DNA from: Rhodospirillaceae bacterium
GTDB lineage: Bacteria > Pseudomonadota > Alphaproteobacteria > SHVP01
Assembly: GCA_002722055.1 (NCBI GenBank)
Contig: PBKD01000001.1
Location: 1 to 57,520 of the forward strand
Direction of reading: 5' to 3'
DNA: 57,520 nucleotides
The notes beneath the pieces were generated by a model. The model saw only the letters and a program-made list of their open reading frames with translations, was not told the DNA's origin and made no database searches. A program made the position numbers and the translations under genes. Below, piece by piece: positions 11,136 to 16,597 of this stretch. The stretch's first letter is position 1. Every line of letters begins with the position of its first letter.

Positions 11136-11165
11136 TGATCTAACCATTAATTTTTTACGTAAATA
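11136..11165 (+). promoter_or_regulatory. Possible ECF-sigma promoter, TGATCT-N18-TAAATA
   Basis: TGATCT (11136-11141), an 18-base spacer ending ACG, then TAAATA (11160-11165), 20 bases before the ATG at 11186. It has the same geometry as the two sites at 11499 and 12956, with two mismatches, so it may be a weaker member of the same regulon. The RpoE/ChrR -35 element TGATCC is established knowledge; assignment of this site is inference. Confidence 0.4.
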
Positions 11166-11185
11166 TAGGTAATTAGGAGAATAAT

Positions 11186-11482
11186 ATGTTTAAAAACTTA
11201 TACAATTTAATTTTTGATGCTGATAAAAATCCATTCTGGAAATTACCTTTGACTGTACGTTTCCAGGTTATGATAATCTTATCATTTATGTGGTCAGTTA
11301 TTTTTTCTGTTGGAATAGGTACTTGGTCATACTTTGGTTATTCAGTACTTATTCACATCCCTATAGTTCTTGGGGTAGTTTTTACCTCTTGGATATTCAA
11401 AGATAGTCAAACAATATCTCCCAGGGATTTAATTAAAAGAAAAGACAGCACACCTATGTATGATGATGTGTGGGGTGGATAA
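11186..11482 (+). CDS. Small two-span membrane protein, unknown
   Basis: 98 residues with strong ribosome site AGGAG. Two membrane spans (about 26-48 and 54-72) are flanked by a charged N-terminus (FDADKNPFWKLPLTVRFQ) and a C-terminal tail ending TPMYDDVWGG. I do not recognise a characterised family. It lies immediately upstream of the sigma/anti-sigma pair and has a possible ECF-type promoter, so an oxidative-stress link is possible but unproven. Confidence 0.65.
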   Translation: MFKNLYNLIFDADKNPFWKLPLTVRFQVMIILSFMWSVIFSVGIGTWSYFGYSVLIHIPIVLGVVFTSWIFKDSQTISPRDLIKRKDSTPMYDDVWGG

Positions 11483-11498
11483 TTAATTAATTTATAAC

Positions 11499-11528
11499 TA
11501 ATCCAAAACCTATTTATCTTCGTATAAA
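11499..11528 (+). promoter_or_regulatory. Probable autoregulated ECF-sigma promoter
   Basis: TAATCC (11499-11504), an 18-base spacer, and TATAAA (11523-11528). The 15 bases TTATCTTCGTATAAA are identical to the site upstream of the secreted protein at 13015. Its placement upstream of the sigma gene fits autoregulation of RpoE-ChrR operons, whose known -35 element is TGATCC. Confidence 0.6.
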
Positions 11529-11537
11529 AGATGTTGT

Positions 11538-11588
11538 TGGCTCACTCTAAGGTATCCCAAAACAATTCCTCCCACTTAGAGTGAGCCA
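11538..11588 (+). promoter_or_regulatory. Perfect 14-bp hairpin at the predicted 5' end of the sigma mRNA
   Basis: The arm TGGCTCACTCTAAG (11538-11551) is the exact reverse complement of 11575-11588, with a 23-base loop. Transcription from the promoter at 11499-11528 should begin near 11535, so the hairpin would form at the very 5' end of the leader, about 40 bases before the sigma start. There is no T tract after it, so it is not a classical terminator. It may protect the mRNA, bind a protein or act as an operator on DNA. Confidence 0.65.
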
Positions 11589-11626
11589 CATTAGTACTAA
11601 ATATTTAATAACTGATTGATTTTTTT

Positions 11627-12295
11627 ATGTTTTTTTATTCTTTACAAGATAATTCAAAAGTTCCAGTTTACAAATGTACGGACAATAATTATGTTCCCTA
11701 CATGAATAATAATGTTTTAAATAATAACGTTTTGAATAATAATGTTTCTCAGATTAACTATTCATTTTTAATAGATGAAATAGCAAACAATCAAAATAAG
11801 CAGGCTTTTATTAAATTATTTAACCATTTTGCACCTAGAATTAAAAGTTTTGTTCTAAAAACAGGCTTATCTTTGAATGAAGCAGAAGATCTAACCCAGG
11901 AAACCATGATAACTGTTTGGAATAAAGCTAAATTATTTAAGAGTGATAAATCCGCCGCTTCTACTTGGATATTTGCTATAGCTAGGAATAAAAGAATCGA
12001 CCATCTCAGACGTCAAAAACATCCTTTACCACACCAGGATGACTTATTATTAGCCTCGGAAATAGACCTGAAGACTCATGAGTTAGAATTAGAAAAAGAG
12101 CAAACTTTCAATAATATTAAACTCGAAATTACAAAACTCCCTAAAGAACAATCAGATGTATTAAAAAAATCTTTCTTTGAAGGGATGTCACATATTGAAA
12201 TATCAAAAGATTTAGATATTCCATTAGGAACTGTTAAATCACGTATCCGACTTGCTTTAACAAGTATTAGGAAAAAAATGAAGGGCTTAAATTGA
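11627..12295 (+). CDS. rpoE: ECF sigma factor, RpoE/ChrR group (ECF11-like)
   Basis: 222 residues as drawn. Region 2 (AFIKLFNHFAPRIKSF ... EAEDLTQETMITVWNKA, STWIFAIARNKRIDHLRR) and region 4 (LPKEQSDVLKKSFFEGMSHI, then IPLGTVKSRIRLAL) are clear. The first about 40 residues are not part of the fold and include a tandem NNNVL repeat; an alternative ATG at 11702 would give 197 residues, nearer the family norm. The gene is coupled to chrR (TGATG). In R. sphaeroides this sigma group activates the singlet-oxygen response once ChrR releases it; the same role is inferred here. Confidence 0.9.
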   Translation: MFFYSLQDNSKVPVYKCTDNNYVPYMNNNVLNNNVLNNNVSQINYSFLIDEIANNQNKQAFIKLFNHFAPRIKSFVLKTGLSLNEAEDLTQETMITVWNKAKLFKSDKSAASTWIFAIARNKRIDHLRRQKHPLPHQDDLLLASEIDLKTHELELEKEQTFNNIKLEITKLPKEQSDVLKKSFFEGMSHIEISKDLDIPLGTVKSRIRLALTSIRKKMKGLN

Positions 12296-12939
12296 TGTAT
12301 CCAAAACACCATCCAAGTTATGAATTATTATTAGATTATGCAGCAGGTAATCTACCAATAGCTCCATCTGTAATAATTGCCACGCATTGTTCTATTTGTC
12401 ATGAATGTAGAGATACTCTCGATACAATCAATATAACTGGAGCTGCTCTGATGGACGATTTAAATGCCGATAGTCTTGATACTGATTCTTTAGAAAATGT
12501 TTTAACAAAAATAAATAATCAACCTAAAGATACTGAGATTAAATACGATTATAACTCTAACAGTTTGACATTTGATGTTCCAAAGACACTTAATAACTAT
12601 TTACCAAAATCATTAAAATGGAAAAACCTTAGTTCTGGTGTAAAAACTGCTGAACTCATTGCAGATGATGGTTTCAATTTAGATATTTATAGGATCAAAA
12701 GCGGTTATAAAATCCCTAAACATACTCATACTGGATTCGAGTATACAATGGTATTAGACGGTGGTTTTACTGATAATCAAATTTATTTCGGACCAGGTGA
12801 TTTTAGTTTTCTAGATGATACTTCCAATCATTCACCAAAGGCCGATTTAGATAGAGACTGCTACTGTTTAGTCTCAATTGATTCTCAAATTAAACTAACT
12901 GGTCCGATTGGAAGATTTATAAACTTAATTAATAATTAA
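12295..12939 (+). CDS. chrR: ChrR-family zinc-binding anti-sigma factor
   Basis: 214 residues from the ATG overlapping the sigma stop. The N-terminal anti-sigma domain carries the zinc motif H-x3-C-x2-C, seen as THCSICHEC, with an upstream His in HHPSYELLLDY. The C-terminal half is the ChrR cupin, with HTHTGFEYTMVLDGG, GPGDF and DTSNHSPKA supplying the metal ligands His/His/Glu/His. In the known system the N-terminal domain holds RpoE inactive and the cupin is needed to respond to singlet oxygen. All key ligands are present, so it should be functional. Confidence 0.92.
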   Translation: MYPKHHPSYELLLDYAAGNLPIAPSVIIATHCSICHECRDTLDTINITGAALMDDLNADSLDTDSLENVLTKINNQPKDTEIKYDYNSNSLTFDVPKTLNNYLPKSLKWKNLSSGVKTAELIADDGFNLDIYRIKSGYKIPKHTHTGFEYTMVLDGGFTDNQIYFGPGDFSFLDDTSNHSPKADLDRDCYCLVSIDSQIKLTGPIGRFINLINN

Positions 12940-12955
12940 TTTTATTTTTTTTATG

Positions 12956-12985
12956 TGATCCATTTTTTCTTTATCTTCGTATAAA
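12956..12985 (+). promoter_or_regulatory. Probable ECF-sigma promoter of the secreted repeat protein
   Basis: TGATCC (12956-12961), an 18-base spacer and TATAAA (12980-12985), 30 bases before the ATG at 13015. The -35 element is an exact match to the RpoE/ChrR consensus half, and the -10 side shares TTATCTTCGTATAAA with the site at 11514-11528. Confidence 0.65.
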
Positions 12986-13014
12986 GTTAAAACAATCATA
13001 AAGGAAAAATTTCA

Positions 13015-13368
13015 ATGAAATATATAATTTCTGTACTATTGGTAGTATTTTTTACTAGCTCAGCTAACTCCATGTATACAACAGGTTATTCGCCTAAAGC
13101 TCTTGGTATATCTTACAATGAATATAATAATAGTGTTTACATGCAAGCATCTTATTCAAAATTTAACAAAGACGTATTAATCGACGAATCATTGATTGAT
13201 CAGTTAATTGCAAGTTTTCCAACAAATAAAAAGAAATACAATTTTGATGAGTCTATAATTGATCAATTAATTGCAAGTTTCCCTGATACACTGGACTCTT
13301 ACACTTCAAAAACACCTTTTAAGGAAGTTAGTCTTTACGAGTTATTATTAGACACATATAGAAGTTAA
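13015..13368 (+). CDS. Small secreted protein with duplicated DESxIDQLIASFP motif
   Basis: 117 residues. A signal peptide (MKYIISVLLVVFFTSSANS) precedes a mature protein of about 98 residues. The 13-residue motif DESLIDQLIASFP (57-69) recurs as DESIIDQLIASFP (78-90), a 21-residue period. The two DNA copies differ at several synonymous positions while the residues are kept, suggesting an old repeat under selection. It has an ECF-type promoter and its own terminator, so it is a single-gene unit. I recognise no family. The amphipathic motif could be a binding helix, and periplasmic location is likely. Confidence 0.75.
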   Translation: MKYIISVLLVVFFTSSANSMYTTGYSPKALGISYNEYNNSVYMQASYSKFNKDVLIDESLIDQLIASFPTNKKKYNFDESIIDQLIASFPDTLDSYTSKTPFKEVSLYELLLDTYRS

Positions 13369-13386
13369 AGTAATATTATGATAAAT

Positions 13387-13420
13387 GACCAGGTATAGCG
13401 TTATCTGGTCTTTTATTTTT
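13387..13420 (+). terminator. Rho-independent terminator after the secreted protein
   Basis: GACCAG (13387-13392) pairs with CTGGTC (13405-13410) around a 12-base loop, followed directly by TTTTATTTTTT. It lies 19 bases after the stop of the 13015 gene. Confidence 0.75.
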
Positions 13421-13608: not shown

Positions 13609-14398
13609 ATGAAAAATATATTATCAATAATTGATACATTTACATCTACAGAATTTTCTGGTAATCCTGCTGCTGTGTATCATATGAAAGAAGATAAGAC
13701 ACAATTTTGGATGCAAAAATTTGCTGCTGAAATGAACTTATCTGAAACAGCATTTTTAAAAAAAAAAAACAGATAATTATTGGTTTTTGAAATGGTTTAC
13801 TCCAGTTGCTGAAGTAGAACTGTGTGGTCACGCTACTCTAGCAAGTGCTCATTATTTATGGAGTCAAGAACTAGTTTCTATAAATGATGTAATAAAGTTT
13901 GAAACCAAATCTGGTATTTTAGAATGTAAAACAGATAATAAATACATATATATGTATTTTCCGTTGATAGAGACAAAAAATATATATCATTTAAATAATT
14001 TAGATAAATACTTAGGAAATAAACCTGAATATATTAAAAAGTCTAAATGGGACTTAATCGCTATATTTAATAATCATAATGATATAATTAATTTGGATCC
14101 AAAATTTAATGAACTTAAACAGTTTTCATCGAGAGGGGTAATTGTTACTTCACCTGGTAATGAAAAATATAACTTTTTTGCAAGGTTTTTTGCTCCTAAC
14201 CTTAGAGTCAATGAAGATTATGTTACCGGATCGATATACTGTTCACTTGCTCCATATTGGAGTGAGAGATTAGGCTTAAAAAATATGATTGCTTATCAGG
14301 CATCAGAAAGACCAGGTATTATTGATTTAAAAGTATATAAAGATAAAGTTAGAATTGGAGGTAAGGCAAAAACTATTACAATTGGTAAATCAATATAA
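13609..14398 (+). pseudogene. PhzF-family isomerase with a frameshift in an A12 run
   Basis: From the ATG at 13609 the frame reads MKNILSIIDTFTSTEFSGNP, a perfect PhzF start, through MNLSETAF. It then meets a run of twelve A (13758-13769) and stops at NR. Removing one A joins it to ...TDNYWFLKWFTPVAEVELCG and the rest of a normal PhzF (HATLASAHYLW, GSIYCSLAPYW) to 14398, about 262 residues. PhzF-type enzymes are trans-2,3-dihydro-3-hydroxyanthranilate isomerase-like epimerases; the substrate here is unknown. The fault could be a real mutation, a sequencing error in the homopolymer, or a slippage site that still gives some full-length product. Confidence 0.85.
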
Positions 14399-14401
14399 AT
14401 A

Positions 14402-15343
14402 TTATGGGTCATAACCTAATAGTAATACATTAAAAAATTTATCTTTATCATTCCAACTATTTATTTTCTTATAACCACTACTTTTTGCTAAATTTAAAAA
14501 ACTTTTTTCAGAATATTTATATGAATTTTCTGTATGAATTATTTCATTTTCCTTAATATATATTTCTTTATCTCCGATTTTAACAATTTGATCTTTCAAA
14601 CTAATAATATGCATTTCAATTCTATTATAATTATCATTATAAATAGCAATATGTTTATAATAGTTTAAATCAAAGTTTGCTTTTAACTCTCTGTTTATTC
14701 TTATTAAAATATTTAAATTAAATTTAGCAGTTATGCCTTCTTTATCATTGTAAGCATTTAATAATATATTTTTCTCTTTTATCATATCAATACCAATAAT
14801 TAATTTAGAATTTATACCTAAAAATTCACCAAAATTTTTTAATAATTTTTTTGCTGATGAAGGATCAAAGTTACCAATTGTAGAACCTGGAAAAAAACCA
14901 ATTTTATTATTATAGTTATCAAAATTATTTTTTTGATAATCTATTTTTTTATTAAAGTCAGCATATAGTGGTTCAATTTTAATATTTGAGTAATCACTTC
15001 TTAATAACTCTGAATGATAGTTTAAGAATTCAAATGATATATCTATTGGTATATAATTTTCTACTGACAAATTATCTAATAGAATTTTAATTTTTTGTAA
15101 TGAACCCGCACCGAACTCAAATATACTAAGATTGTTTTGTAAATATTTATTAATAATATTTATATTTTTTTCAAGTATAGAGACCTCTGTTCTTGTAAGG
15201 TAATACTCTGTAAGTAAACAAATTTTATCAAAAAGTTGAGAGCCTAATTTATCGTAAAAATATTTACTTGGAAGTGTTTTGTTTTTTTTACCTAAACCCA
15301 TACATACATCAGAATATAGTTGACTATTATAAATATTATTCAT
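14402..15343 (-). CDS. egtD: Ergothioneine biosynthesis: histidine N-alpha-methyltransferase EgtD
   Basis: 313 residues, normal length. The SAM-dependent histidine trimethyltransferase fold is visible: LPSKYFYDKLGSQLFDKIC and LTEYYLTRTEVSIL at the start, SIFEFGAGSLQK as the SAM-binding motif I, GFFPGSTIGNFDP in the core and LIIGIDMIKE later. EgtD makes hercynine from histidine with three SAM. It follows egtB by 15 bases on the same strand, giving a minimal two-gene ergothioneine operon. Confidence 0.95.
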   Translation of the reverse strand: MNNIYNSQLYSDVCMGLGKKNKTLPSKYFYDKLGSQLFDKICLLTEYYLTRTEVSILEKNINIINKYLQNNLSIFEFGAGSLQKIKILLDNLSVENYIPIDISFEFLNYHSELLRSDYSNIKIEPLYADFNKKIDYQKNNFDNYNNKIGFFPGSTIGNFDPSSAKKLLKNFGEFLGINSKLIIGIDMIKEKNILLNAYNDKEGITAKFNLNILIRINRELKANFDLNYYKHIAIYNDNYNRIEMHIISLKDQIVKIGDKEIYIKENEIIHTENSYKYSEKSFLNLAKSSGYKKINSWNDKDKFFNVLLLGYDP

Positions 15344-15358
15344 AAAACTACAAACCTA

Positions 15359-16597
15359 CTATATGTTATTTGCTAACCTTAAACCGGAGAACATCCACCT
15401 CATATGGGGATAATAAAAATTTCTATATGATATTCTAGAATGATTACAAGGAGTAACAAATGAGCTCCCACGTAAAACTATCTGATTGATCATAAATTTA
15501 CTATTATACTCTCCAAGATGTCCTGTATAAGGTTTATAATTAGGGTAGGGTTGAAAAAAGCTACTTGTCCATTGCCATAATGAACCAAATAAATCATTTA
15601 TTTTATAACCTTGATTCATAATTGTTGAGTACTTTGCAGCATACTCCCATTCAAACTCTGATGGTAATCTTTTATTTGACCATCTAGCAAATGCATCAGC
15701 CTCGTAAAAATTAATGTGAGAAACAGGTTCGTCATCATCTATTTCTTTTGTGCCAGATAAAGATATGTGTGACCAAACATTATCTTTTTTCTTCCAATAC
15801 ATGGGACTATTAATATTATAATTTTTTATTAATGACCATCCATCCGATAACCACAATTCTGATCTATTGTAACCATTATCAGAAATAAAGTTTTTCCAAT
15901 CTTTGTTTGTAACTAATTTTGAAGATATTTCAAATGGTTTAATCAAAACTTCATGTTTAGGTGTTTCACAATCAAAACCAAACTTTTTACTATCGAGACC
16001 TATATCTATTACTCCACCTTTTTGATAGATCCATTTTTGCTTGGAAGTATCTTTCTCTAATTTAATTTTTTTATCAAATATAGGTACAATAATATTTTTT
16101 GAGTAAAGATTTAGTATATCTGATTGTATTAATTCAGCATGTTGTTCTTCATGAGCAATACCTAATTCTATAAGTTCAAAAAAAACATTCATATATTTAT
16201 CGGAAATTGCTTCGAATAACTGAATTATATGCGTATCAACATATTTACGATATTTAGTTACCTCATCTACTGTAGGTCGTAATATATATCCTCGGTTATT
16301 TCTTTTATGAATTTTTCCTATTGTTTCATAGTATGAGTTAAATAAATAAGCATAGTCTTTATCAAATACATTATAATTTTTACTATATTTTTTTAGAATA
16401 ATTTCTTCAAAAAACCATGTTGTATGAGCTCTATGCCACTTCAATGGGCTGCAATCTTCCATTGATTGAGGAATTTGATCTTCAGGGTTAACTTTAGATG
16501 CTAAGGATTCAGTATAGTTTCTTATATTAATAAAATTATTTAATAAAGAATCATTTAATTTATTTAAATTAAATTTTTTTTTGTTATCTACAGTCAT
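15359..16597 (-). CDS. egtB: Ergothioneine biosynthesis: hercynine sulfoxide synthase EgtB
   Basis: 412 residues. The N-terminal DinB-like domain gives the iron-binding His residues in WHRAHTTWFFEE and GIAHEEQHAELIQ; the C-terminal formylglycine-generating-enzyme-like domain runs through GFDCETPKHEV, EPVSHINFYEADAFARWSNK, RLPSEFEWEYAAKY and GSLWQWTSS to VLRGSSFVTP. EgtB uses O2 and Fe(II) to form the C-S bond on hercynine. EgtC/EgtE are not seen here. Ergothioneine is an effective singlet-oxygen quencher, which fits the adjoining sigma/ChrR genes, although no matching sigma site is seen upstream. Confidence 0.95.
   Translation of the reverse strand: MTVDNKKKFNLNKLNDSLLNNFINIRNYTESLASKVNPEDQIPQSMEDCSPLKWHRAHTTWFFEEIILKKYSKNYNVFDKDYAYLFNSYYETIGKIHKRNNRGYILRPTVDEVTKYRKYVDTHIIQLFEAISDKYMNVFFELIELGIAHEEQHAELIQSDILNLYSKNIIVPIFDKKIKLEKDTSKQKWIYQKGGVIDIGLDSKKFGFDCETPKHEVLIKPFEISSKLVTNKDWKNFISDNGYNRSELWLSDGWSLIKNYNINSPMYWKKKDNVWSHISLSGTKEIDDDEPVSHINFYEADAFARWSNKRLPSEFEWEYAAKYSTIMNQGYKINDLFGSLWQWTSSFFQPYPNYKPYTGHLGEYNSKFMINQIVLRGSSFVTPCNHSRISYRNFYYPHMRWMFSGLRLANNI

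Follow-up and report, generated by a model that had tools for sequence, protein, structure and literature searches.

Many genes of unknown function belong to the extended RpoE/ChrR regulon. The regulon table of R. sphaeroides lists cfaS, phrA, RSP_1087-1091, folE2, a fasciclin protein and others, RSP_1087 being annotated as short-chain dehydrogenase (PMC7074977), and rpoHII is a direct target of RpoE in the same bacterium (PMC6852236; PMC3441632). For PSPTO_1043 of P. syringae the promoter consensus TGATCC-N16-CGTA was deduced from ChIP-seq (PMC5507510), and the same consensus is found in the promoters of Shewanella oneidensis RpoE2, two of which have mapped starts (PMC4336711).

How does the locus described here compare with these systems? 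The window, which is the whole stretch of 57,520 nucleotides that was analysed, is a part of the genome G000 (2.16 Mb in 15 contigs). Its bearer is a marine alphaproteobacterium from the same genus as MarineAlpha2_Bin1, which serves below as the sister species (G001). Like RpoE/ChrR of R. sphaeroides (ECF11), the locus has an anti-sigma factor of ChrR type with a cupin domain, a putatively autoregulated operon, -35 elements of TGATCC type and an RpoH-type sigma factor as a predicted target. With PSPTO_1043/1042 of P. syringae and RpoE2/ChrR of S. oneidensis it shares an identical promoter consensus, which in those bacteria has been experimentally bound or mapped. The named targets differ: in P. 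syringae and Shewanella they are a photolyase, a catalase, a glyoxalase and a periplasmic glutathione peroxidase, and the regulon table of R. sphaeroides (PMC7074977) contains no secreted repeat protein. RSP_1088 and RSP_6222 of R. sphaeroides, named only 'hypothetical', can be set beside the small membrane protein of the window by name only, and PSPTO_4335 and PSPTO_3907, likewise 'hypothetical' targets in P. syringae, are known here by label and not by sequence. The features of the locus are collected in Table 1.

Table 1. Features of the putative RpoE/ChrR locus, numbered from the first nucleotide of the window
Feature	Coordinates	Strand	Remarks
Predicted ECF11-type promoter of the small membrane protein, TGATCT-N16-CGTAAATA	11136..11165	+	Sister species: exact TGATCC-N16-CGTATAAA
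Two-span membrane protein, 98 residues	11186..11482	+	Invariant in the family: L32, W36, F40, G45, H57, T67
Predicted ECF11-type autoregulatory promoter of the sigma/ChrR operon, TAATCC-N16-CGTATAAA	11499..11528	+	Sister species: TGATCC-N15-CGTATAAA
RNA hairpin, predicted 5' end of the sigma mRNA	11538..11588	+	14-bp stem, 23-nt loop; leader z -4.4
ECF sigma factor (RpoE of the RpoE/ChrR pair)	11627..12295	+	Pfam Sigma70_r2 and r4; TIGR02937 sigma70-ECF, 88 bits
ChrR-type anti-sigma factor with ChrR cupin domain	12295..12939	+	TIGR02451, 186 bits; Cupin_7, 38 bits
Predicted ECF11-type promoter of the secreted protein, TGATCC-N16-CGTATAAA	12956..12985	+	Exact in both species
Secreted protein, 117 residues	13015..13368	+	Repeats (F/I)DES(L/I)IDQLIASF at residues 56-68 and 77-89; degenerate third copy at 103-115
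Hairpin like an intrinsic terminator, with T-run, after the secreted protein gene	13387..13420	+	

A preliminary description of this DNA had assigned the regulatory pair to the RpoE/ChrR type, and the assignment agrees with the TIGR02451 score of the anti-sigma factor, which is above the cut-off of 124.5 bits, and with its translation, in which HxxxCxxC and the cupin HTH are seen. The ChrR-family gene directly follows the sigma gene, its start codon overlapping the sigma stop codon by 1 base. The class of the sigma gene itself is read from its ECF-type domains (Pfam, NCBIfam). We read the locus as a probable stress module of ECF11 (RpoE/ChrR) type in a marine alphaproteobacterium, and the small membrane protein as an output of RpoE/ChrR that has no name so far and is widely conserved among Alphaproteobacteria; to this reading as a whole we give a probability of about 0.85. 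When ChrR lets go of the sigma factor, the latter would transcribe its own operon and, via matching promoters, the gene of the small two-span membrane protein, that of the secreted repeat protein and also rpoH, which lies in another part of the genome. The signal may be singlet oxygen, as membership of the family suggests, or an organic peroxide, and under such stress both target proteins presumably serve the cell envelope.

The predicted regulon is well supported by its promoter sites. All three sites of the preliminary description are present: TAATCC-N18-TATAAA before the sigma gene, TGATCC-N18-TATAAA before the secreted protein gene and TGATCT-N18-TAAATA before the small membrane protein gene, in the intervals given in Table 1. 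For the -10 element, CGTA(TAAA) after a spacer of 16 bases is the better reading, and so read the sites match the ECF11 consensus TGATCC-N16-CGTA, which bears out the promoter class that had been proposed and suggests that the sigma factor of the pair uses them. In dinucleotide shuffles of their own upstream regions such sites appear at frequencies of 0.015%, 0.05% and 0.03%, and all three together in none of 20000 shuffles. Conservation upstream of orthologues had been named beforehand as one test of the claim, and the sister species keeps all three sites with both boxes exact, in intergenic DNA that has diverged around them. Before the sigma gene, where autoregulation demands a site, the window has one mismatch and the sister species exact boxes with a spacer of 15. 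The preliminary description had also drawn attention to a 15-mer common to two of the sites, TTATCTTCGTATAAA. The 15-mer is there in the window, but in the sister species only TGATCC and CGTATAAA are kept; thus, the identical spacer bases carry no evidence, and constraint seems to act on the boxes alone.

Is it conceivable that the three sites are chance matches in AT-rich DNA, or that they serve another sigma factor? G000 is indeed AT-rich, loose matches with two mismatches are abundant in it (702), and the exact pattern TGATCC-N15/16-CGTA is not enriched genome-wide over a reversed-pattern control (3 versus 3 in G000, 5 versus 3 in G001). Genome-wide counts were therefore dropped as evidence, which lies in position and conservation instead; three of the five exact matches in G001 are the three sites of the module. 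Against this stand the dinucleotide shuffles and the conservation in the sister species; moreover, homologous genes of GC-rich genomes are preceded by the same motif, although their spacers are unrelated. This comparative result already contradicts chance, and we regard either explanation as very improbable. As a positive control, the strict motif was found 44 times in 33 rpoE-chrR loci, 30 of which had the highest ChrR scores in a sample taken across the Alphaproteobacteria, whereas 0.8 occurrences are expected from base-composition shuffles; 42 of the 44 have a spacer of 16.

Among the predicted targets it is the small two-span membrane protein that is widely conserved. Its site, called the weaker third copy in the preliminary description, is weak in the window, where it departs from the consensus in both boxes (TGATCT and CGTAAATA), and this counts against our reading; yet it is exact in the sister species, and the gene behind it gives the wider result. 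The gene differs from that of the sister species by 44 synonymous and 11 non-synonymous codons. The family has no convincing match in Pfam or NCBIfam, and neither a sequence search nor a structure search gave a match in the PDB. Its two membrane spans were read from the sequence, and the predicted model is mostly helix with fair local confidence (pLDDT 82, pTM 0.43). A profile search found homologues in 29 of 385 genomes of the class. In a sample of 398 genomes from the phylum there were 5 with the protein, one of these 5 outside the class, and none was found on plasmids.

The same predicted promoter precedes homologues of this gene far beyond the genus. A strict-type site lies within 130 bp upstream of 15 of the 33 homologues, where the remainder of these loci would lead one to expect about 0.10, and all 15 have a spacer of 16 bases with unrelated spacer sequences. 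The site-bearing genes span many alphaproteobacterial families. In addition, near-sites can be recognized by eye, unscored against a background, as AAATCC-N16-CGTA in L091 and TGATCT-N16-TGTA in L099 and L102, and, equally by eye and unscored, before two gammaproteobacterial homologues, as TCATCC-N16-CGTA in L088 and AGATCT-N16-CGTA in L151; the latter was placed by the search in another class of the phylum and is presumably gammaproteobacterial. The genomes of both L088 and L151 have a ChrR above cut-off. Within the class, the site and the regulator tend to go together: above-cut-off ChrR is present in 9 of the 11 small-protein genomes with a strict site, versus 4 of the 18 without it (Fisher p 0.003, uncorrected for kinship). 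Over the whole sample, however, genomes with the small protein do not have ChrR significantly more often (p 0.31, again uncorrected for kinship), and 16 of the 29 class genomes with the protein are without above-cut-off ChrR. One site-bearing genome, G006, gave no ChrR match at E 0.001; these observations weigh against our reading. In its favour, the site is also present in G008, where the small gene and chrR are on different contigs.

What does the small protein do? In several loci (L090, L094, L098) a short-chain dehydrogenase gene is found downstream of the small gene, and other neighbours are a photolyase FAD domain (L093), EgtD (L095), a DCC protein (L086) and, in L096, a BLUF protein with a fasciclin-like protein. 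These neighbours fit a role in photo-oxidative stress, without saying which. It is conceivable, at slightly less than even odds in our estimation, that the small protein is a new, widely conserved RpoE/ChrR output in both Alpha- and Gammaproteobacteria with an undescribed membrane function, such as sensing or repair of lipid damage. Another idea is that it is not an effector at all and acts from the inner membrane as feedback on the module, tuning the turnover of ChrR or reporting damage to membrane lipids, by analogy with the fatty-acid-modifying RpoE targets of R. sphaeroides. Its two predicted membrane helices, its conserved membrane histidine H57, the tail DGT..YDD.WGG in one subgroup and the adjacency of its gene to rpoE-chrR in the window, in the sister species and in L086 would suit such a role; however, the separation of the gene from chrR in G008 and the several genomes that have the protein without above-cut-off ChrR speak against it, and the damage-response neighbours (short-chain dehydrogenase, photolyase domain, EgtD, BLUF) fit an effector equally well. 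We regard feedback as rather doubtful. With the sigma site before its gene in many families and near-sites in a second class, the small membrane protein makes a concrete candidate for a component still missing from the photo-oxidative stress response, and one that can be tested in culturable hosts.

The secreted repeat protein, which the preliminary description had put forward as a dedicated output of the response, has a much narrower distribution. The reading frame of 117 residues with its signal-peptide-like start, the 13-residue repeat and the terminator-like hairpin were all found as described. The sister species has an orthologue in the same place (68% identical, E 4.4e-49), with its promoter. 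The two genes differ by 41 synonymous codons, and their differences are distributed 25/20/61 over the three codon positions; synonymous differences and the concentration of changes at third positions indicate that this is a real, constrained protein. Outside the genus, in contrast, it was found in no genome: no relative could be credited in any of 95 other genomes, none was found in about 85,000 species genomes or in viral contigs, and weak matches in four genomes of the class (E 0.002-0.03, 28-34% identity) were not credited. Therefore, it looks like a lineage-specific accessory, a predicted target of the sigma factor that was probably added at the level of the genus.

It has to be considered whether the secreted protein might be a sacrificial or lipid-binding envelope protein, whose tyrosine-rich head quenches singlet oxygen and whose three short amphipathic helices attach to membrane lipid. 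Ten tyrosines among the 98 mature residues in G000 and seven in G001, the repeat register S-L-x-x-x-L-x-x-S/T-F/Y and the signal-peptide-like start kept in both species point in this direction, but the argument is one from composition, the known sequences number only two, with three tyrosines fewer in that of the sister species, and the structure prediction is uninformative (pLDDT 38); we think this role unlikely.

A further candidate target lies outside the window. The exact pattern is located 63 bases before rpoH in G000 (L069 1501-1564; G000:C4:17601-17664), and a strict-type site 65 bases before rpoH in G002, a third genome of the genus (L156); no such site precedes rpoH in G008 and G009, more distant members of the family. 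Unlike in the core regulon of R. sphaeroides, the photolyase cluster of G000 (G000:C3:7678-11056, L075) is without the motif, no matrix match of 9 or more being present upstream, and it is the only detected rpoH, the single RpoH match at E 1e-20 or better, that carries the site. The link suggests that the only detected heat-shock sigma factor of this marine lineage may be under control of singlet-oxygen type. ECF11 control of the photolyase cluster and of egtB-egtD was considered and rejected, as no site was found.

The leader of the sigma gene has a peculiarity of its own. Some ten bases downstream of the -10 box in the sigma promoter there starts a predicted RNA hairpin, which would thus form the 5' end of the sigma mRNA. 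Its loop shares 22 of 23 bases with that of the sister species, where the stem is kept up by three compensatory pairs and one wobble, with one pair broken. When pairs were shuffled as a control, 72 of 500 shuffles reached the observed covariation, as is expected with two sequences only, so that the covariation of the stem is suggestive but not firm. Rfam gave only a below-threshold miRNA match at this place. Within a photolyase gene of G000, a coding stretch (L066 1501-1520; G000:C3:9202-9221) could pair with the loop at 18 of 20 bases, but as no second match was found in G001, this pairing was set aside as probable chance.

Downstream of the module, a frameshift at a run of A divides a PhzF-like gene (13609-14398), which in the sister species is intact with 263 residues; a sequencing error, decay and slippage are indistinguishable as causes. 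The genes egtD and egtB for ergothioneine synthesis (14402-16597) adjoin the module without an ECF11 site, and an EgtD gene is also close to the small membrane protein gene in L095.
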